The notes below the pieces were generated by a model. The model did no database searches. It was not told the origin of the DNA and saw only the letters and a program-made list of their open reading frames with translations. From the NCBI GenBank assembly GCA_024399535.1, contig JAKSNU010000002.1, forward strand, positions 1 to 53,646: a stretch of 53,646 nt of DNA, written 5' to 3'. This document shows, piece after piece, positions 27,748-38,570 of the stretch. Source of the stretch: Paludibacteraceae bacterium. GTDB lineage: Bacteria > Bacteroidota > Bacteroidia > Bacteroidales > Paludibacteraceae. The stretch's first letter is position 1; each line of letters opens with the position of its first letter. The position numbers and the translations under genes were made by a program.

Positions 27748-27776
27748 TTTGGTTTTCGTTTTATATGTTAATTTTG
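27748..27776 (+). promoter_or_regulatory. Distal promoter upstream of the giant repeat protein
   Basis: TTTG at 27748-27751, a 17-base spacer, then TAATTTTG at 27769-27776 followed by CAC. The spacer is slightly short. A transcript from here would start near 27783, about 620 bases before the giant gene, leaving either a long leader or an uncharacterised small RNA. Confidence 0.5.
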
Positions 27777-28401: not shown

Positions 28402-31400
28402 ATGAAAACAAAGAGTCACAAGTTCAAAACGGCATTATTGTTATTGATGCTGTTGATTGTGCCGGTCGCTGCAGCCGCGAAAATTAAATTGCAGGTTACT
28501 GGGACAAGTATTAAAACTGAGAAGCCTTTTGATGGAAACAACAAAGCAAAGGTTCTCTCGGTGGGAACTATCACTACTGCATTAGATCCTGAGCATCCAA
28601 ACATTGATGTCATGTGCGATGCTTACTATGACGATTCTAATGTGGGTGTAGGTAAAAGAATCACAGTTGTATTCAAGGTCGTAAATGTAGGAGAAGGTTC
28701 TTTGAGTCATGACAAGGACTATTACGATGCGCCTGATACAATTTTCCTTTACGATTGTCAAATCACACGACTCACGCTCAGTCTTGCAACTGCAGTCAAT
28801 GTTCAGAAACAGAAAGTATATGATGGCACAAATATTGCTCAGGTGAATGGAGTGCCAGCGCTTGCGGGAAAGGTTGATAACCATGGCGATGTCTATATTT
28901 CGGACATTCAGGCTACATATAATGACAAATATACTGGTTACTACGATAAGGTTATCATTGTGAAATATACAATCAGCGGTGCTGATGCAATATACTACAA
29001 TGCTCCTTTGGATGACCAGATTGACGAAGCATCAATTCTGCCAAAACAGCTCACGATAAGCGGTGTGGTTATCGGAGATAAGCAATACGATGGTAATAAT
29101 GTCGCTTATATTCAGGACTATGGTGAGTTGCATGGCATTGAGGGAAACGACGTTGTTTCGCTTTCCAGAACTGAAACGGTAGCGTTCTATGCCGATAAAA
29201 CTGCTGCTGACAACAAATCTGTTACGGTCACATACGTGTTGTCAGGTCAATATAAGGAACAATATATTGCTCCTATGCCTGAGACATTCACTTCGTCCAT
29301 CTCGAAACTTACTGTAAATGTCACTGGTACTACTATTGCTCCAAGAGATTATAATGGATCAGATGTGGCTACAATAAGAGATAGTGAAGTGGGAAGCCTC
29401 AATACTATCCTTCCAGGCGATAATGTTGTGCTCAAGGTTAGCTCTGCAAAATATGATGCGGCAAATGCTGGCACACATAATGTGAATGTCAACTATTACC
29501 TTTCGGGAGCAGATGCTGCCAATTATCAGCTGGGTCAGTTGCCAGTTGTCCAAGGCGTAATCAGACCTAAACAACTCACTATTTCTGGAGTTTCAATTAA
29601 AAGTTCAAAGGTGTATGACGGAAATGACAATGCAGGTTTCATTTCTGAAGGAACACTTAGCGGTGTCGTCGGTTCTGATGTGGTTGATTATACAGCGACT
29701 GCAAAATATGAAGACAAGAATGTCGGTTCTTACAAGAAAGTGACTGTCAGTTACACTATTTCGGAACAAGGTGGAACACAAAACTATATAGCACCTTCGC
29801 TCACTTCGATATTCCATGCGGATATTACTCCTAAACAATTATACATATCGGGATTTGAAATCGAGCCTACTAAGATATATGATGGAAAAAAGGTGTCGCT
29901 GATCAGGAATTACGGAATGCTGTCAGGTATTGTCAGTGGTGATAATGTCTCAATCAGTTCGGTAAATGCGGAATATGTTAACGAGTATGTGGGTAATTCG
30001 AAACCAGTGTATGTCGATTTTACATTAATCGGTGTTGACAAAGACAATTATGTCGCTCCAGAACAGCCAATTGGACTATCTGCTAACATCACTCCAAAAC
30101 AACTTACTGCTACAACTCCTTCAGTTGTGACTACAAAAACGTATGACGGAAACACCAATGCGTCTTTGACATTGGGAACTTTGGGTGGCAAGGTCGGTAG
30201 TGATGACGTGCAATTACGTGGTACGGCTTCGTATGAAGATGAAAATGTCGGTGGCAATAAACTTATAACTGTTGTCTATTCGTTAACTGGCAATATGGCA
30301 TCAAACTATATTGTTCCGGAAAATTATACTACTACAGGTTCAATTACCAAATCGACTTCTGCATCGGTAGTGCCAAATAGTGTCAAGTTTGACAAGAGCA
30401 AGACATACGATGGTACGACTGACATAGTTGTGACTGACAATGGAAAGTTACAGAATGTCAATCCTGGTGATGACGTGAGACTGATTGCAAAAGTCCGTTA
30501 TGTAGATGCAGATGCAGGAAATGGTAAGACAATTTTTATAGAATATGAGCTTGAAGGTGCCGACAAGGACAATTATGAGGTTCCTCAACCTGAAATATTA
30601 TATGACGGCGAGATTAAACCTAAACAGTTGACCGTATCTTCAATTCCAAACGTAAACGACAAGGTGTTCGACGGAACAACTGTTGCCGAGGTTGACGGTA
30701 CTGTAACTCTCACTGGATTGATTTCTGGAGATGATGTGACGGTAACGCCTGTTTGCAATTTTGATAATGCTACTGTAGGCGATAACAAACGTGTTTCTTT
30801 CACTTTCACTTTGGATGGTTTGGATAAGGGTAACTATATTGCTCCAACAACAACTTCTTCAAAGACGGCAAATATTATCAAACGACAACTTACGGCTGAT
30901 GCTCCTGTCATCACTAAAGGAAAGGTTTATGACGGAAATACAACGGCATCTGTAACAGCAACTGTAGATTTGCTTCACGGTTTGCAAACCGGATATACCA
31001 ATGTTACGCTTAAGGCTGTTGCAAACTATGCAGATGCCAAAGTGGGTACAAACAAGCAAATCACTGTGGTTTACACGATTGATGGTCAAGATGCCTTTAA
31101 TTATATCAAGCCTTTTGATTACCATGCTTACGATGGTTATATCACCCAAGCTTCGGCATTGACGGTTGAAGAGGGTAGCGTGGTGTACGAAAACGAGAAG
31201 GAGTATGACGGCAATGACACAATCCATGTGATTTATCCAGGTCGCTTGATAGGTGTAAATCCTAAGGATGATGTCAGACTCGTGGCAAGGGCGAGATACT
31301 CGAACGCCGATGCAGGTAGTGGAAAAATGGTAATTATTGAGTACGAACTTGTCGGTGCGGACAAGGATAATTATGTGAAACCAGCGCCTACAATTGAATA

Positions 31401-34400
31401 TACAGGTAATATCAAGAAGCGTAGGTTGAGTATAGTTACTGCACCAAATGCACTGAATAAGGTATTCGATGGAAATAGTGATGCATTGTTGACCAATACG
31501 GCTATCTTTTCAAATTTCATTCAGGGTGACGATGTGACTGTATCGTCAACAGGTGTATTCGACAATGCAATAGTTGGTGAGAATAAGAAAGTTACAATCA
31601 ATTACACCTTGTCAGGTGATGATATGAACAACTATTTCGCTCCTGCATCTACCAATACATATGCCTCGATTACTCCACTACAATTGGTTGCAGGTACTCC
31701 TGATATTACAATAAGCAAAAGCTATGATGGCAACAAGAATGCATTTGTCGTTCCTGGTAGTCTGGTGAATGTCGTTTCGGGTTATGCAAATGTAACTCTT
31801 ACTGCTAACGGGCAATACGATAATTCAAATGTAGGAACAGGTAAGACGATTACTATCGAATATTTCATATCAGGTGCAAATTCTTCTAACTATCTTAAAC
31901 CAGTGAATTATCAAATTTTCAATGGTGAGATAACCACTGCAGAGTCTGTTGTCGTAGATTTGGAAAGCGTTAAATTTGACTTGGGTAAGGAGTATGATGG
32001 TACTGACACTATACACATTATAAATAATGGAAAATTAGTGGGTACCGACCCTGCTGATAGTGTGACACTCAAGACCAAAGCGCATTATGAGAGTGCCGAT
32101 GCCGGCGAAGGCAAAATCATCATTCTCGAATACGAGTTGGAGGGACCTGGCAAAGATAACTATGGCAAACCTAAAAACGATACACTCAGAAATGGTGTGA
32201 TTGTTCCTATTCAGTTGGAGTTGCAAAATCCTTTGACTGCAAATGATACGACATTCAATGGCAGTACGATTGCTAAATTGTCAGGCTCTGCATCGGTCGT
32301 TGGTGTCCTCCCAATTGACTTGAACTCGGTTAGAGTCGTAGCAACAGGTGAATTTGTTGACGCTACTGCTGGGGTAAACAAAAAGGTCGTTGTAAAATAT
32401 ATGTTGGAAGGAGATGCAAAGATTAATTATTTGGCTCCTGCAAATACAGAAACCAAAGCAACTATCAAACAAAAACAGTTGAAAGCTTCGTCTCCTGTCA
32501 TAACAAAGACAAAAGAGTATGATGGTACCGTCAATGCAGTAGTGAAAGCAGGCACTCTTCTCAATCTTGAAAGTGGTTTTGAAAATGTCGTGCTGACTGC
32601 TAACGCTTCGTATGACACTAAGGAAAAAGGTTCAAATAAAACCATCACGGTATCATATACTATATCTGGCGATGACGCAATGAACTATATTGAACCTGTG
32701 GATTATAAAACTCACGATGGCGTCATAAACAAATCAGAGGCAATTTCGGTGGATTATGGTACAGTAGGATATAATAGCGAGAAGACATACGATGGCACAA
32801 ACATTATTGTCGTTACTGACAATGGCGAAATCTCAGGTGCTAACCCTAAGGATGATGTGTCACTCATTACTACGGCATATTATGATGATAAAAATGCCGG
32901 AGAAGGGAAACGTATAATCATTCATTATGAACTCGCAGGTGCTGACAAGGATAATTACGATACACCTGAAAATGATACATTATATAATGGTGTAGTCGTT
33001 CCTAAGCAATTAGTACTTGTTCAGGAGCCTATGGCTAAAGGCAAGGTATTTGATGGAACGATAGATGCAGAATTGTCGTCATCATTGATTGTATCTGGCA
33101 TATTGACAGGTCTTGGTGATGAGGCAACTGTGACGGCTAAGGGTGAGTTTGAAAATGCTGTGGTTGCAAATGGAAAATCAGTTACAATAACCTATTCTAT
33201 AACAGGAAGGGATAAAGATAACTATACAGCACCTAATGCGACATTCTCGACTGCAGACATAAGACCTTTGAAACTCACTGCCGGTATTCCTAACATTGTA
33301 AAAGTGAAGGAATATGATGGTGACAACAAGGCATGGGTGACTATGTCGTTGGATTCGTTGACCAACCTGAAGGAGAACTTTAGAAATCTGGAATTGAATG
33401 CAACAGCTACATATAATAACGAAAAAGTAGCAAGCAACAAGCAAATAACCGTACATTACGAATTGTCAGGTGTTGATGCCGTAAATTATATTGCTCCTAA
33501 CGACTATTACACATTTGATGGAGAAATCTTCAAGAATAGATCGTCAAAGGTTGTCGGTACACAAGTTGAAAGCATCAAGAATTACGATGGTGACACAAGA
33601 GTCACAGTATTGTCGGATGGCGAAATAAGTGGTAAGGGGGATGATGATGTGACGGTACAGGCTACTGCTAATTTCGAAACTCCAGAAGTAGGCAACAACA
33701 AGATGATTATAATCACTTATGAACTCATAGGTGAAGATCAGTTGAATTATGAAATTCCTGAGCCAGACACAATCTATGGTATAGTTTTACCTAAATTGGT
33801 ATATGTGACTGATGCAAGTGCAAATGACAAGTATTACGATGGTACGAAAAATGCTACGATTGATCTCTCATCAGCTTCGCTCGTCGGTCTGATTGGTGGC
33901 GATAATGTTAATATAACTGCTAATGCAAGCTTCAGCAAGAAGAATGTAGGATATCATCCTGTACTCGTTTCCTATTCGTTGTCTGGCGCAAGTGCTCAGA
34001 ACTACAACCTCGGTGACTCGGCAAATACAATCTTACATGCAAACATTATGAAAAAACCTGTATCGGTTGTTGATGTGATTGCTGAAGACGAACGCCAGTA
34101 CAATGACTCGACTGATATTTATGTTGTATATAGCGGACGTATAGATGGTCTGATTTCAGGTGACCATGTTGGAGTTGTAGCTACAGCTAAGTTCGACAGA
34201 AAATATGTAGGAATACGTAACGTCATCTACCATTTTGATTTTATCGGTGATACGACTAATTATGAGATTACAAATGTTGATAGTACTGATTATGCAGGAG
34301 GTAGAATTACTGCTGTAAAACCATATGTCGTTGGTACGGAGATAGATTCTGTTAAGGTGTATGACGGAACACGCAATGCTTGGGTGAGAAATGTAGGAAC

Positions 34401-36933
34401 ATTGTACGGCTTCAGTATGGACGGTATCATCCTGAATGCAGTCGCATACTATGCTGACGAGAATGTGGCAAATGCAATACCTGTTACTGTCACTTACACG
34501 ATTGGTGGTCCTAATGCCTATAATTTTGAAGTTCCTGAAAGTACACTGTTGCAAGCTGCAATTACTCCTAAAACTATCACAGTGGCAGGAACAGTTGTTG
34601 AGTCGCAGAAGGCATACGACAAGACAAATTCAATAGACGTACTTTACGATGGTGATCTTGTCGGTGTCTGTGGAACTGATAATGTGGGATTGAATGTCTC
34701 AGCACACTATGATGACATCAATGTGGGTAATGCGAAAACTGTAAGTGTACATTATTCTTTGACAGGAAGCAAGAGTGGTAACTATGAGGTGACTGACACT
34801 GTTCTGACTGCAGACATCAAGTGCAAGCAGTTAGGTGTTCAAGGTACGGTGGTTGATATGTCTAAGCAGTACGATGGTGATGACGATGCCAATGTTCAGA
34901 CAAGCGGATATTTGGTTGGCGTTGAGGCTGGTGATGAGGTCTATGTGACTGCTGAGGCTGAATATGGAAGTGTTGCTGTAGGTATCAACAAGATAATAAA
35001 TGTTGAATATACTATTGCTGGTCCTGATGCTGCAAACTATATCAAACCAAATGATTCGGTATTTACTACGAATGGTATAATTACTAAACGTCAGTTGTAT
35101 GTGTCAGGCATTAACCTCGACACGACCAAGGTTTACGATGGTAATACATTCGCAAATGTTTCAGTAAACGGCGCTGTCCCTGTATTTGGTGGCGACAATG
35201 TATCAGTAAATGCAATTGCTAACTATTCAAACAAAAATGTCGGTACTGATATGATTACGGTTCACTATCTCTTGACTGGCGATACTGCAAATTATTCGGT
35301 GCCTGATGATTTTGTTACGAATGGTTCGATAATCTGCAAACCTGTTTACATTACAGGTACTAAGGTGGATTCTGTGAAGGTATATGATGGTACAAGCAAT
35401 ATCAATATTATCGACAATGGCAACTCGTCCGACTTTATAATCGGAGATACAGTGGCTGTGGCAACGAATGCATTGCTCGTTGGCGAGACATTTGGAGTTG
35501 TTAATGAGGTGGCTGTCAATTATTATCTTACGGGTTCTGACAATGGTAACTATTGTGTTATGAATGAATACGATACATTGAAAATGAATGTGGTTATCAA
35601 TCCAAAACAAATTGATACGTCATTTATCTCTACTATATTCAATCCTGACAAGGTATATGATGCTACTGTGGCATTGAATGTAGTTGCCAACTTGAATCAG
35701 TCGTGTATAGTTGGTGGCGATGATGTTCAACTGAACACTATTGCTTACTATGATACCAAAGATGTCGGTACACGTACACTGACTATCAAGTACATGTTGT
35801 CAGGTGACGACTACGATAAATATGATGTGCCAGCTGATTTGGTATGTCAAGGTCATATCACTCCTTATCCACTTGCGATTTCACGACCTGTAGTCGATGA
35901 ATGGAAGATGTATGACGGTACTGATGTTGCTGCTGTATTAGGTAAGGCTTCTGCTACGAACCTGTTTACAGGCGATCAGGTTTATATCCTCACAAATGCA
36001 TCATACGATAATCCAAATCCAGGAACAAACAAATCGATTTATGCGCATTTCTCGACATATGGTATAGACGCTGCGAACTATACAGTGCCAGATACTATAT
36101 TATATTCAACTGCTGGAATAATATACGATACAATCGCACTGAAGGAGCAAACGAATGGTATGAAGTTTATCCCGGATGCTGTATCGTATTGTAAGGGAGA
36201 TAAGGTTACGCTCGGGTTTAATGTTATCAGTGGTGATCCAGTAGAATATCGTATGGAGTTCTTGGGCGAAGCCAAGAAACTATTTAAGGATTCGACATGG
36301 CGACCAACCAATGATGATAATACATTATCGTTCAACGTTGAACCAAGGGATGACGTACATGGTGTCTATAAAGGAATCATTATAATGAGAAATGAATTGC
36401 AGCAACGTGACGACATCAATGATAGATTGTATAGTGATACCTTTGAAATTAGAGTTAATATGTCAGCTGATGCTTATCTGACAAAGATGTACAGCGATGT
36501 CATTTCGCTCGTGCTCACTCATAGTGGCGATACATTCAAGACATATCAATGGTACAGGAATGGTGATATAATCCCTGGTGCGACGTTGCCTTATTACAAA
36601 GAGCAAGGTGGCTTGGACGGAGTATATTATGCAATTGTCAATATGGGTATGCCAACTGAGGAACGCACCTGCGATTCTCCTCTGTTCAAGGCTGGAAAGA
36701 ACGACGACAAACGCATTATGGCTTATCCTAATCCAGTGCAAGATCATGTGACATTGCGAATCGACAATTTCACTGACGAAACTCACACTATGAAGGTTGT
36801 CAATGCAATGGGTAATGTTTTGGAAACCCGGGAATTTGATGGTGATGTTCTTGATTTCAATATGGATGGGTATATACCTGGAATCTATACTATAACTATT
36901 GACGAATTACAAATAAAGGTAATAAAGAAGTAA
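28402..36933 (+). CDS. Giant secreted YDG-repeat protein with T9SS sorting domain
   Basis: 2843 residues. A signal peptide (MKTKSHKFKTALLLLMLLIV, cleavage after about residue 26) precedes about 29 tandem domains of roughly 88 residues (about 28480-36140). Each opens with K-x-YDG-x, has G-x-LxG-x-x-xGD-x-V in the middle, then NVG-x-xK-x-I-x-V-x-Y-x-L-x-G-x-D-x-x-NY, and ends with xPKQL. This is the YDG/MBG-type repeat pattern of large bacterial surface proteins. Residues about 2580-2770 are a non-repeat Ig-like region. The last ~74 residues, starting RIMAYPNPVQDHVTLRIDNF and ending IKVIKK, form a type IX secretion C-terminal sorting domain. ATG 28402 is chosen because it puts the basic residues at the signal N-terminus. 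The OmpA-family gene follows after one base. Role in adhesion or surface-layer formation is inferred. Confidence 0.9.
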   Translation: MKTKSHKFKTALLLLMLLIVPVAAAAKIKLQVTGTSIKTEKPFDGNNKAKVLSVGTITTALDPEHPNIDVMCDAYYDDSNVGVGKRITVVFKVVNVGEGSLSHDKDYYDAPDTIFLYDCQITRLTLSLATAVNVQKQKVYDGTNIAQVNGVPALAGKVDNHGDVYISDIQATYNDKYTGYYDKVIIVKYTISGADAIYYNAPLDDQIDEASILPKQLTISGVVIGDKQYDGNNVAYIQDYGELHGIEGNDVVSLSRTETVAFYADKTAADNKSVTVTYVLSGQYKEQYIAPMPETFTSSISKLTVNVTGTTIAPRDYNGSDVATIRDSEVGSLNTILPGDNVVLKVSSAKYDAANAGTHNVNVNYYLSGADAANYQLGQLPVVQGVIRPKQLTISGVSIKSSKVYDGNDNAGFISEGTLSGVVGSDVVDYTATAKYEDKNVGSYKKVTVSYTISEQGGTQNYIAPSLTSIFHADITPKQLYISGFEIEPTKIYDGKKVSLIRNYGMLSGIVSGDNVSISSVNAEYVNEYVGNSKPVYVDFTLIGVDKDNYVAPEQPIGLSANITPKQLTATTPSVVTTKTYDGNTNASLTLGTLGGKVGSDDVQLRGTASYEDENVGGNKLITVVYSLTGNMASNYIVPENYTTTGSITKSTSASVVPNSVKFDKSKTYDGTTDIVVTDNGKLQNVNPGDDVRLIAKVRYVDADAGNGKTIFIEYELEGADKDNYEVPQPEILYDGEIKPKQLTVSSIPNVNDKVFDGTTVAEVDGTVTLTGLISGDDVTVTPVCNFDNATVGDNKRVSFTFTLDGLDKGNYIAPTTTSSKTANIIKRQLTADAPVITKGKVYDGNTTASVTATVDLLHGLQTGYTNVTLKAVANYADAKVGTNKQITVVYTIDGQDAFNYIKPFDYHAYDGYITQASALTVEEGSVVYENEKEYDGNDTIHVIYPGRLIGVNPKDDVRLVARARYSNADAGSGKMVIIEYELVGADKDNYVKPAPTIEYTGNIKKRRLSIVTAPNALNKVFDGNSDALLTNTAIFSNFIQGDDVTVSSTGVFDNAIVGENKKVTINYTLSGDDMNNYFAPASTNTYASITPLQLVAGTPDITISKSYDGNKNAFVVPGSLVNVVSGYANVTLTANGQYDNSNVGTGKTITIEYFISGANSSNYLKPVNYQIFNGEITTAESVVVDLESVKFDLGKEYDGTDTIHIINNGKLVGTDPADSVTLKTKAHYESADAGEGKIIILEYELEGPGKDNYGKPKNDTLRNGVIVPIQLELQNPLTANDTTFNGSTIAKLSGSASVVGVLPIDLNSVRVVATGEFVDATAGVNKKVVVKYMLEGDAKINYLAPANTETKATIKQKQLKASSPVITKTKEYDGTVNAVVKAGTLLNLESGFENVVLTANASYDTKEKGSNKTITVSYTISGDDAMNYIEPVDYKTHDGVINKSEAISVDYGTVGYNSEKTYDGTNIIVVTDNGEISGANPKDDVSLITTAYYDDKNAGEGKRIIIHYELAGADKDNYDTPENDTLYNGVVVPKQLVLVQEPMAKGKVFDGTIDAELSSSLIVSGILTGLGDEATVTAKGEFENAVVANGKSVTITYSITGRDKDNYTAPNATFSTADIRPLKLTAGIPNIVKVKEYDGDNKAWVTMSLDSLTNLKENFRNLELNATATYNNEKVASNKQITVHYELSGVDAVNYIAPNDYYTFDGEIFKNRSSKVVGTQVESIKNYDGDTRVTVLSDGEISGKGDDDVTVQATANFETPEVGNNKMIIITYELIGEDQLNYEIPEPDTIYGIVLPKLVYVTDASANDKYYDGTKNATIDLSSASLVGLIGGDNVNITANASFSKKNVGYHPVLVSYSLSGASAQNYNLGDSANTILHANIMKKPVSVVDVIAEDERQYNDSTDIYVVYSGRIDGLISGDHVGVVATAKFDRKYVGIRNVIYHFDFIGDTTNYEITNVDSTDYAGGRITAVKPYVVGTEIDSVKVYDGTRNAWVRNVGTLYGFSMDGIILNAVAYYADENVANAIPVTVTYTIGGPNAYNFEVPESTLLQAAITPKTITVAGTVVESQKAYDKTNSIDVLYDGDLVGVCGTDNVGLNVSAHYDDINVGNAKTVSVHYSLTGSKSGNYEVTDTVLTADIKCKQLGVQGTVVDMSKQYDGDDDANVQTSGYLVGVEAGDEVYVTAEAEYGSVAVGINKIINVEYTIAGPDAANYIKPNDSVFTTNGIITKRQLYVSGINLDTTKVYDGNTFANVSVNGAVPVFGGDNVSVNAIANYSNKNVGTDMITVHYLLTGDTANYSVPDDFVTNGSIICKPVYITGTKVDSVKVYDGTSNINIIDNGNSSDFIIGDTVAVATNALLVGETFGVVNEVAVNYYLTGSDNGNYCVMNEYDTLKMNVVINPKQIDTSFISTIFNPDKVYDATVALNVVANLNQSCIVGGDDVQLNTIAYYDTKDVGTRTLTIKYMLSGDDYDKYDVPADLVCQGHITPYPLAISRPVVDEWKMYDGTDVAAVLGKASATNLFTGDQVYILTNASYDNPNPGTNKSIYAHFSTYGIDAANYTVPDTILYSTAGIIYDTIALKEQTNGMKFIPDAVSYCKGDKVTLGFNVISGDPVEYRMEFLGEAKKLFKDSTWRPTNDDNTLSFNVEPRDDVHGVYKGIIIMRNELQQRDDINDRLYSDTFEIRVNMSADAYLTKMYSDVISLVLTHSGDTFKTYQWYRNGDIIPGATLPYYKEQGGLDGVYYAIVNMGMPTEERTCDSPLFKAGKNDDKRIMAYPNPVQDHVTLRIDNFTDETHTMKVVNAMGNVLETREFDGDVLDFNMDGYIPGIYTITIDELQIKVIKK
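30371..33549 (+). repeat. Higher-order array: three-domain unit repeated four times inside the giant gene
   Basis: Domains 8-19 alternate strictly in three subtypes. Type A: SVxF-x-KxYDGT, VxxNG, DADAGxGK, ELxGADKDNY. Type B: KVFDG, xGDDVTV, FDNAxVGxNK. Type C: PxITKxKxYDG, a GLxxGYxNVxL loop, and a YDGxI linker before the next A. Successive A domains begin at about 30371, 31168, 31960, 32751 and the series ends at about 33549. That is a period of 791-799 bases. Confidence 0.85.
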
Positions 36934-36934
36934 T

Positions 36935-38491
36935 ATGAAAAAGTTGGTTATGATATTTGCTGCTGCTGCATTGATTTCTACAAATGCAGTAGCGGTGAAC
37001 TTGGAGGAAAAGAATGATAGTGCCAAAGCTGAGAAACGAGAATTGGCAGATTCGACCGTTGCACAATATTTTGCTTTTTCGTTCGGTGGTGGATTGAGTA
37101 CTATGTTGTATAAACCAATTGATGGCGTTTGGAATACTGGGTTCGGAGGTTCGTTCGAATTGGCATACCATGTTATGTTTAAGCCATCTTGGGGCTTGGG
37201 TATTGGAATTCAAGGAGTATATTTCAGTTCGTCTGCCGTATATAATTTCAATTATGGGATAGAAGGTTTGATGCATCGTGATGCTATTTTTGACAATAAC
37301 AAACCATATACTGAAAAATATGAATTCAGGAATTGGAAAGAGCGTCAGAACTTGGTGAATATTGAATTGCCAATCAAGTTGTTGTATAGACACCGTTTTG
37401 CTGATGCGTGGTCATTTGCTTTTAACCCTGGTATTATTCTGACTGTGCCAGTATATGGAACGTTGAGGTCAGATGGTGGTGAGGCAGAAGTGAGTGGATA
37501 TGTTCCTTCAACTAATGTTGAGTATAGAAATGTGGGACATCATTTCGAAACTTATAAAACAGGTGAATACAAAGATGTGATTTATAAATATTTCAATTTT
37601 GGTGTGTGCGCTGATTTAGGCTTCATTCATCATATCTCGCTCAAATCTGATTTATACCTTGGCCTATATGCAGAGTATCACATCTTGAACAGTATTAAAC
37701 CTACGAATGATTACATTGCTCAGGTGAAAGATATTGAGGATGTCAGAGATGGAAAATATATTTTTGATTACAAAGGTAGTTTCAGGTCTGATCGAGTGTC
37801 GAAGGTCAATCCGCTCTATGTAGGTGTCAAACTTGGATTCAGGTTCAGGGTGGATAATGCAATGGAAGAAAAGAAAAAGCTTGACGAAAAATTGGCACAA
37901 GGAAGACGCGATAAGGCTGCACTGGATTCTTTGAAGGCTAAATATGTGGCAGATTCACTTGCCGATGCAGAAAGAATGAAGGCTATGCGTGAATTGGCTG
38001 CTGAAGACTCGTTGGCTGCTGCTGACCGTTTACATCGTGAGCAGGGTGCTAAATCTGCTGTGGAAGGAGAATTGGCAAGATTGCGTGCGGAACACGATTC
38101 ACTACAGCGCAAACAGAAAGAAATCCTCGAACGTAAACGTATATCTGATCACATCAATAGCATTGCTCATTTTGATACTGCACAGGATTTCCCTTACATT
38201 GATGAGGAATCAGAAGATGCATTAAGAAGGTTGGCAGAACTTATGAAGGAAAATCCAAATATCTGGGTGACTGTATTTGGTCATGCTGATAATACAGGTT
38301 CTTATGATATGAATATCATCTACGGACAAAGGCGTGCTGAGGCAATGAAGAAAGTATTGATGAAGTACGGTGCAGATGGGTCAAGGATTATTCCTGTCAG
38401 CCGTGGAGACACTGACCCTGTTGCTTCAAATGACAACGAAGAAGGAAGACGTCTCAACCGTCGAGCTGAGATTGACATCCAGGAGAGATAA
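36935..38491 (+). CDS. OmpA-family outer membrane protein with N-terminal beta-barrel
   Basis: 518 residues. A signal peptide (MKKLVMIFAAAALISTNAVA) is followed by a beta-barrel-like region of about 290 residues with alternating aromatic strands (FAFSFGGGLSTMLYKP, ELAYHVMFKPSWGLGIGIQG). A charged coiled coil follows at about 295-405 (KLDEKLAQGRRDKAALDSLK, then RLRAEHDSLQRKQKEILERK). The C-terminal OmpA peptidoglycan-binding domain starts at about 410, with VFGHADNTGSYDMN and YGQRRAEAMKKVL and closing EEGRRLNRRAEIDI. This carries the Asp and Arg residues for diaminopimelate binding. The start is one base after the giant gene's stop, so translation is coupled. It probably anchors or supports display of the giant protein (inference). 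Confidence 0.88.
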   Translation: MKKLVMIFAAAALISTNAVAVNLEEKNDSAKAEKRELADSTVAQYFAFSFGGGLSTMLYKPIDGVWNTGFGGSFELAYHVMFKPSWGLGIGIQGVYFSSSAVYNFNYGIEGLMHRDAIFDNNKPYTEKYEFRNWKERQNLVNIELPIKLLYRHRFADAWSFAFNPGIILTVPVYGTLRSDGGEAEVSGYVPSTNVEYRNVGHHFETYKTGEYKDVIYKYFNFGVCADLGFIHHISLKSDLYLGLYAEYHILNSIKPTNDYIAQVKDIEDVRDGKYIFDYKGSFRSDRVSKVNPLYVGVKLGFRFRVDNAMEEKKKLDEKLAQGRRDKAALDSLKAKYVADSLADAERMKAMRELAAEDSLAAADRLHREQGAKSAVEGELARLRAEHDSLQRKQKEILERKRISDHINSIAHFDTAQDFPYIDEESEDALRRLAELMKENPNIWVTVFGHADNTGSYDMNIIYGQRRAEAMKKVLMKYGADGSRIIPVSRGDTDPVASNDNEEGRRLNRRAEIDIQER

Positions 38492-38534: not shown

Positions 38535-38570
38535 AATATTTGCGGTCGCTCATAGTGACCGCAAATATTT
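38535..38570 (+). terminator. Terminator of the giant repeat protein/OmpA operon
   Basis: AATATTTGCGGTC (38535-38547) pairs with GACCGCAAATATT (38557-38569), with further pairing of GCT/AGT around the loop CAT. The strand then continues TTTTG. It lies about 45 bases after the OmpA stop. Confidence 0.82.

Follow-up and report, generated by a model that had tools for sequence, protein, structure and literature searches.

A giant YDG-repeat cargo of the type IX secretion system and its adjacent eight-stranded barrel as a putative two-part surface fibre

The known two-part display systems of the type IX secretion system (T9SS) are described as associations of a type B cargo with a PorP-like barrel, as in SprB–SprF and PG1035–PorP–PorE (PMC9143113). 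Each type B substrate is reported to have a dedicated outer-membrane carrier (PMC12635249), and type A substrates are described as using the general carrier PorV and as being released or attached to lipopolysaccharide (PMC12635249, PMC9143113). PorV and the PorP-like carriers are described as 14-stranded barrels of the FadL family (PMC9143113). Here we describe a two-gene locus of a Paludibacteraceae bacterium (assembly GCA_024399535.1), located on positions 1 to 53,646 of the forward strand of contig JAKSNU010000002.1; this whole stretch of 53,646 nucleotides is referred to below as the window. The locus encodes a giant T9SS cargo, P0001, and a barrel protein, P0002. The source is a gut bacterium that makes a very long, surface-exported repeat fibre, which the small membrane barrel encoded by the neighbouring gene probably holds. 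The following features were assigned to the locus:

28402..36933, + strand: giant T9SS cargo gene, P0001, 2843 amino acids
28402..28479, + strand: probable signal peptide of about 26 residues, judged by eye from the translation
28480..36117, + strand: 29 YDG domains, outer limits judged by eye on the alignment of the repeats
36166..36687, + strand: module preceding the C-terminal sorting domain (CTD), amino acids 2589-2762, predicted beta-sandwich (immunoglobulin (Ig)-like), from the module profile and AlphaFold2
36724..36930, + strand: type A T9SS CTD, from Pfam and NCBIfam
36935..38491, + strand: partner gene, P0002, 518 amino acids, with barrel, helical linker and OmpA domain
37064..37849, + strand: eight-stranded outer-membrane barrel, amino acids 44-305, the conserved part of the partner family
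37859..38164, + strand: helical (coiled-coil-like) linker of about 100 residues, amino acids 309-410, from the structure model
38195..38485, + strand: OmpA-type peptidoglycan-binding domain, amino acids 421-517, from Pfam and structure comparison
38535..38569, + strand: hairpin, probable end of the two-gene unit (minimum free energy -24.1 kcal/mol, z -6.8)

The original prediction, made from the window's letters, had described a protein of 2843 residues that combines a signal peptide, about 29 YDG-type domains, an Ig-like region and a T9SS sorting domain, followed one base past its stop by an OmpA-family protein with an N-terminal barrel and a coiled coil; both genes were borne out as described. 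Pfam places 29 stretches of P0001 over the cut-off of the YDG family (PF18657). The C-terminal tail scores as a sorting domain, as predicted, with 32.1 bits to PF18962 (cut-off 27) and, when isolated, 27.5 bits to TIGR04183 of NCBIfam (cut-off 23); the whole P0001 gave no NCBIfam match, and the type B family PF13585 was not found in it. P0002 has the order of parts of OmpA, an eight-stranded barrel and then an OmpA C-terminal domain, and the latter matches solved peptidoglycan-binding domains. The hairpin behind P0002 is absent from the list of a separate hairpin scan.

Like SprB–SprF of Flavobacterium johnsoniae, in which sprB is described as adjoining sprF, the locus combines a T9SS surface protein with a barrel encoded by its own adjacent gene. 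It also resembles PG1035–PorP–PorE of Porphyromonas gingivalis, in which PorP–PorE is proposed to be connected to the cell wall by an OmpA-type domain (PMC9143113). In both of these systems the cargo carries a type B CTD, whereas the CTD of P0001 is of type A, and unlike in the PorP/SprF systems, the barrel and the OmpA domain of P0002 are parts of one chain. Membership of the barrel in PorP/SprF was considered and rejected, since it has 8 strands instead of 14 and its family profile reached an hhalign probability of only 8.7% against 25 proteins from PorP/SprF loci, chosen from TIGR03519 loci by position and size. P0002 itself matches no PorP/SprF family in Pfam or, among the 25 of 39 families listed, in NCBIfam. 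Two distant members of the partner family give weak TIGR03519 matches that stay far below the cut-off (E 1.6e-4 and 3.7e-4), and one of them also touches PF11751 (E 0.019). The prediction that the partner belongs to a class other than SprF is thus supported. With OmpA the partner shares the eight-stranded barrel and the C-terminal domain; it differs in the helical linker, in its long loops and in that the OmpA domain is often missing in the family, the neighbouring cargo not. In logic the pair is similar to AtaA–TpgA, a giant trimeric autotransporter adhesin fibre with a membrane anchor reinforced by a second protein (PMC13082670). That system uses another secretion route, TpgA is periplasmic and has no barrel, and the adhesin has a membrane domain of its own; the TpgA model matches nothing but the OmpA part of a single relative, far below its cut-off (35.2 bits against 350). 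PorG is likewise an eight-stranded outer-membrane barrel, with a cysteine-bearing C-tail, and one partner clade has C-X(1-2)-C tails; by description PorG is a general T9SS component (PMC12635249), whereas the partners studied here are paired with a cargo and P0002 has no cysteine tail.

Alignment of the C-termini of 25 paired cargoes revealed a common stretch of about 170 residues in front of the sorting domain. Its near-invariant features are two cysteines near the ends (C2597 and C2757 in P0001), a YQWY-type core and the motif GL.G.Y. No Pfam family reaches its cut-off across this module in P0001. The AlphaFold2 model of the module and CTD of P0001 (270 residues) contains beta structure throughout, with a mean pLDDT of 82.9 and a pTM of 0.58, and its best structural matches are Ig/FnIII chains. 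Many such chains obtained similar scores with Foldseek and VIA-align, and neither revealed a specific relative of the module. The Ig-like region noted in the original prediction is present as this module; that it marks the paired cargoes had been passed over. In the loci compared, the module is the mark of barrel-paired cargoes, and it had no name before. No description of a module–barrel pairing, or of YDG domains in the T9SS, was found in the titles and abstract openings that searches of the open-licence PMC literature gave. Other giant genes (G539:C1:911084-913633, G314:C20 and G445:C20) contain tandem copies of the module's first half; this half would therefore also serve as a stalk domain. 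Below its strong matches the module profile weakly matches many Ig-like repeats, among the matches listed.

The first module profile was trained on 25 cargoes; the later one, used in the test of YDG genes, the count of 65 barrel genes, the scan of the phylum and the control loci, consists of 20 rows. Among the YDG loci of the same family, many giant genes are directly followed by a gene for a barrel with an OmpA domain, several YDG genes have no barrel, some barrels have no OmpA domain and some paired cargoes have no YDG domain. In a test of 30 YDG genes, 17 had both module and barrel, 13 had neither, and none had the module alone or the barrel alone. The test required more than 700 bases downstream; 35 YDG genes lie in loci L068–L107, and five of them were left out. 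The gene of L100 counted as a YDG gene when the loci were read and lies under the YDG threshold of this test. Because 13 of the 17 paired genes are among the 20 training rows of the profile, the informative half of the test consists of the 13 genes without module and barrel.

A search with the barrel alone yielded 20 loci, each of which has a large gene immediately in front of the barrel; all 20 large genes match the module profile, some of them having trained it. Among the long loci fetched for YDG, barrel or phylum matches, 65 distinct barrel genes were counted, near relatives included (at 70% identity 43 barrel rows remain, that of the window among them). With module genes accepted at E up to 0.0045, a module gene lies immediately upstream on the same strand in 62 cases and immediately downstream in one. 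The gap between the two genes ranges from -4 to 166, with a median of 24.5. The sole module gene at E<1e-9 without an adjacent barrel reading frame in this count is that of L244.

The fair tests of the pairing are a scan of the phylum and the barrel loci outside the module training. The scan covered 395 genomes, which were searched separately with the barrel and the module profiles. All 18 strong barrel matches (E<1e-20) outside the genome of the window adjoin a module match on the same strand. They come from 14 genomes; 13 of these belong to a single genus (g66), and the remaining one to another family. The cargo gene comes first in 17 pairs and the barrel gene in one (G476). The barrel match at G539:C1:4400093, among the 17 with the cargo in front, is truncated, and its cargo is the L244 gene. 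Outside the training set the pair was also found in L046, L047, L048, L050, L054, L056, L095 and L096 and as a second pair in L089, and weakly in L045 (E 0.0039); these loci were reached by a search with the partner protein or as neighbours of a known pair. The module is absent (no match at E<0.01) from all 13 control loci that cover the 14 other CTD matches of the window's own genome. Among 30 further control loci from three genomes (30 of 127 CTD matches), two show the module: L161, which is the pair known already, and L162, where the match is weak (E 9.1e-5) and a barrel is missing. The genome of the window has pairs on contigs C12, C34 and C67, and at least two pairs, those on C34 and C67, come in addition to the one described here. 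On C67 (L260, 1-11555) two module-bearing cargo genes surround one barrel gene, and the second cargo contains an IgGFc_binding domain (PF17517, E 9.6e-42).

The remaining parts of cargo and partner vary. YDG domains are present in the cargo of 22 of the 65 barrel genes. Seven other paired cargoes were examined with Pfam: L242 carries SprB repeats, Ig and MBG domains, L241 SprB and MBG, L251 HYR, L260 IgGFc_binding and L146 Glug, and L141 and L259 have no Pfam domain over the cut-off. On the partner side, 33 of the 65 proteins carry an OmpA domain. On a tree of 66 barrels its distribution needs eight gains or losses, at least six of which are forced by well-supported branches. In many partners without an OmpA domain the chain ends with the last barrel strand; therefore, the barrel alone must suffice for the task shared by the family. 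In L076, L095 and L096, repeats of the D-x-D-x-D-G-V type, similar to thrombospondin type 3 repeats, lie between barrel and OmpA domain, where the partner of the window has helices. Judged from these comparisons of sequence, the pairing of module and barrel is real and conserved, and the repeats and the OmpA domain come and go: the constant parts are the module with the CTD and the barrel, and both the repeats and the part in the periplasm can be exchanged. The pairing expected in related genomes is thus present, in the YDG loci of the family, in the count of 65 barrels and in the scan of the phylum. The idea of a secreted fibre with an outer-membrane partner is supported; its definition as YDG repeats plus OmpA domain was wrong.

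We consider it fairly probable that the two genes encode a two-part surface fibre, in which a dedicated outer-membrane barrel acts as the socket of a T9SS-exported fibre and, in the window, is also tied to the peptidoglycan. The fibre would cross the outer membrane through the T9SS. Outside, its C-terminal end, that is the module, the CTD or both, would dock on its own barrel through the latter's long outer loops. We infer that the docked barrel binds the fibre and anchors it on the producing cell. In the OmpA version, to which P0002 belongs, the linker and the OmpA domain would tie the barrel to the peptidoglycan, so that the anchor would resist pulling. The conservation of loops L2 (1.51) and L3 (1.59), compared with 1.43-1.88 for the strands, is at the level of the less conserved strands; this fits a docking surface and is not proof of one.

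Several observations weigh against this interpretation. Loops L1 (1.11) and L4 (1.28) are less conserved than the strands, the limits of loops and strands were drawn by eye with no control family, the model runs the strands on into L2 and L3, and the loops are taken to face outwards by analogy with OmpA. Over 61 pairs, the divergence of the barrel is correlated to the same degree with that of the module (r 0.885) and that of the CTD (r 0.887), so that the two are not told apart as the contact site. Two of the 65 barrels (C89 of the own genome and L274) have no detected module in the neighbouring gene, and the scan of the phylum gave, beyond the 18 strong matches, six weak barrel matches outside the own genome (E 7e-7 to 9e-4), of which the three that were fetched all lack the module. 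Of the seven relatives, L242 alone exceeds the cut-off of the Pfam family Por_Secre_tail; L241 lies under the cut-off, and L251, L141, L259, L260 and L146 show no match. Of seven tails compared with the NCBIfam type A model, that of the window included, six pass and L251 narrowly misses (22.8 bits, cut-off 23); L141 and L241 pass TIGR04183 despite the Pfam shortfall. Finally, the SprA model has no match in the genome of the window, which is 80% complete, and this is no proof of absence.

The closest competing explanation is that the barrel is a dedicated T9SS carrier, which replaces PorV at the translocon, receives the C-terminus as it emerges and is required for the export of its own fibre. 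T9SS substrates are described as forming complexes with outer-membrane carriers, PorV for type A and a dedicated one for each type B substrate (PMC12635249), and the one-to-one adjacency of the genes resembles such an arrangement. The barrel has eight strands, however, instead of the 14 described for the FadL-family PorV and PorP-like carriers (PMC9143113), PorV is the general carrier for type A CTDs such as this one, and a peptidoglycan tie, as in half of the partners, is more in keeping with a permanent anchor than with a shuttle. We therefore regard a carrier as unlikely. Even less probable is that P0001 is an ordinary type A cargo, fixed to lipopolysaccharide by the sortase, and that the barrel is merely co-transcribed and has a separate task, such as stabilising the envelope or sensing. 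Release and attachment to lipopolysaccharide are indeed the fates described for type A substrates (PMC12635249, PMC9143113), but this leaves unexplained why a barrel accompanies the cargoes with the module and is missing beside the YDG cargoes that lack it, and it also leaves unexplained the reversed gene order in G476.

The version given in the original prediction, in which fibres of YDG repeats pair specifically with anchors that carry an OmpA domain, describes the locus of the window and that of the same-genus relative G014 correctly. As a general rule it is refuted by the 13 of 30 YDG genes that lack module and barrel, and YDG as the determinant of the pairing was rejected on this ground. 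The OmpA domain as the constant partner was also rejected, since it is present in only 33 of 65 partners and changes eight times on the barrel tree, at least six changes being forced; with YDG cargoes for only 22 of the 65 barrels, we hold this version to be very improbable.

Beyond the socket itself, it may tentatively be proposed, with less weight than the socket, that the pairs represent a third class of T9SS display beside PorV and PorP/SprF, in which type A fibres are recognised at the module by a dedicated eight-stranded barrel and the tail of the barrel sets the tether (none, OmpA or twin cysteine). If this were true, a barrel without a tail would be free in the membrane and one with an OmpA domain, such as P0002, would be fixed to the peptidoglycan. 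A twin-cysteine tail would form a disulfide to the moving GldK/PorK track, which would then drag the fibre across the cell surface, also in bacteria for which gliding is not known. Giant type A fibres with a non-covalent anchor would be a novelty, since type A substrates are known to be either released or attached to lipopolysaccharide. From the barrel and the module of about 170 residues one could predict by sequence which fibres are anchored, what anchors them and whether the anchor is tied to the wall, and module, CTD and barrel would be a portable display cassette to try.

Tails of the twin-cysteine kind were found in three partners without an OmpA domain, which end in C-X-C or C-X-X-C motifs (CHC, CKNC and CNC) and form one clade with support 99/99. 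They are encoded at 4359-5483 of L259 (C34 of the own genome), 3376-4359 of L260 (C67 of the own genome) and 8010-8873 of L089. The C-X-C tails of SprF and PorG are described as forming a disulfide with GldK (PMC12635249). Because the tails resemble this motif, the comparison suggests that some twin-cysteine fibres may be linked to the T9SS track. P0002 contains Cys225 as its only cysteine and has no twin-cysteine tail.

The genome of the window contains 15 PF18962 matches, eight of them over the cut-off. A single PorP exceeds the cut-off and lies away from the locus; the genes behind it have sizes that, judged by eye, suit PorK-L-M-N. The sole PF13585 (type B) match of the genome lies elsewhere (C3:14004). 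A PorV-type match under the cut-off, beside a cmk-like gene, is perhaps PorQ.

In the whole genome, 27 YDG matches reach E<=0.001 and 26 of these exceed the cut-off; all lie inside the giant gene. The copies share a mean identity of 29%. Repeats 7-20 show a higher-order period of three repeats, with copies three apart being up to 54% identical (mean 36%, compared with 29% overall), and this period is read from the sequence as growth by units of three domains. The repeats are visible at the protein level; Tandem Repeats Finder, with a longest period of 500, reported no tandem repeats in the DNA of the giant gene. Pfam gave no domain in the fibre other than those named, and no solved structure was found by sequence at E<=1. 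The fibre proper looks like a pure stalk. Upstream of the giant gene, a match to the promoter pattern TTTG/TANNTTTG lies at 27748-27776 and ends 626 bases before the start; the window contains six matches to this pattern, compared with 1.6 expected.

Two further kinds of cargo were noted. On C14 of the own genome (L123, 4988-9555) a 1035-residue cargo with a weak CTD and no module is overlapped by four bases by a gene for 487 residues, whose C-terminal half distantly matches the barrel profile (E 1.3e-7); the two are possibly a diverged pair. The same-genus loci L069, L070 and L071 encode a protein of about 448 residues with four YDG domains, no module and no barrel, for which a CTD was found in L070 and, by PF18962, in G014. 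This protein is perhaps a free version of the fibre.

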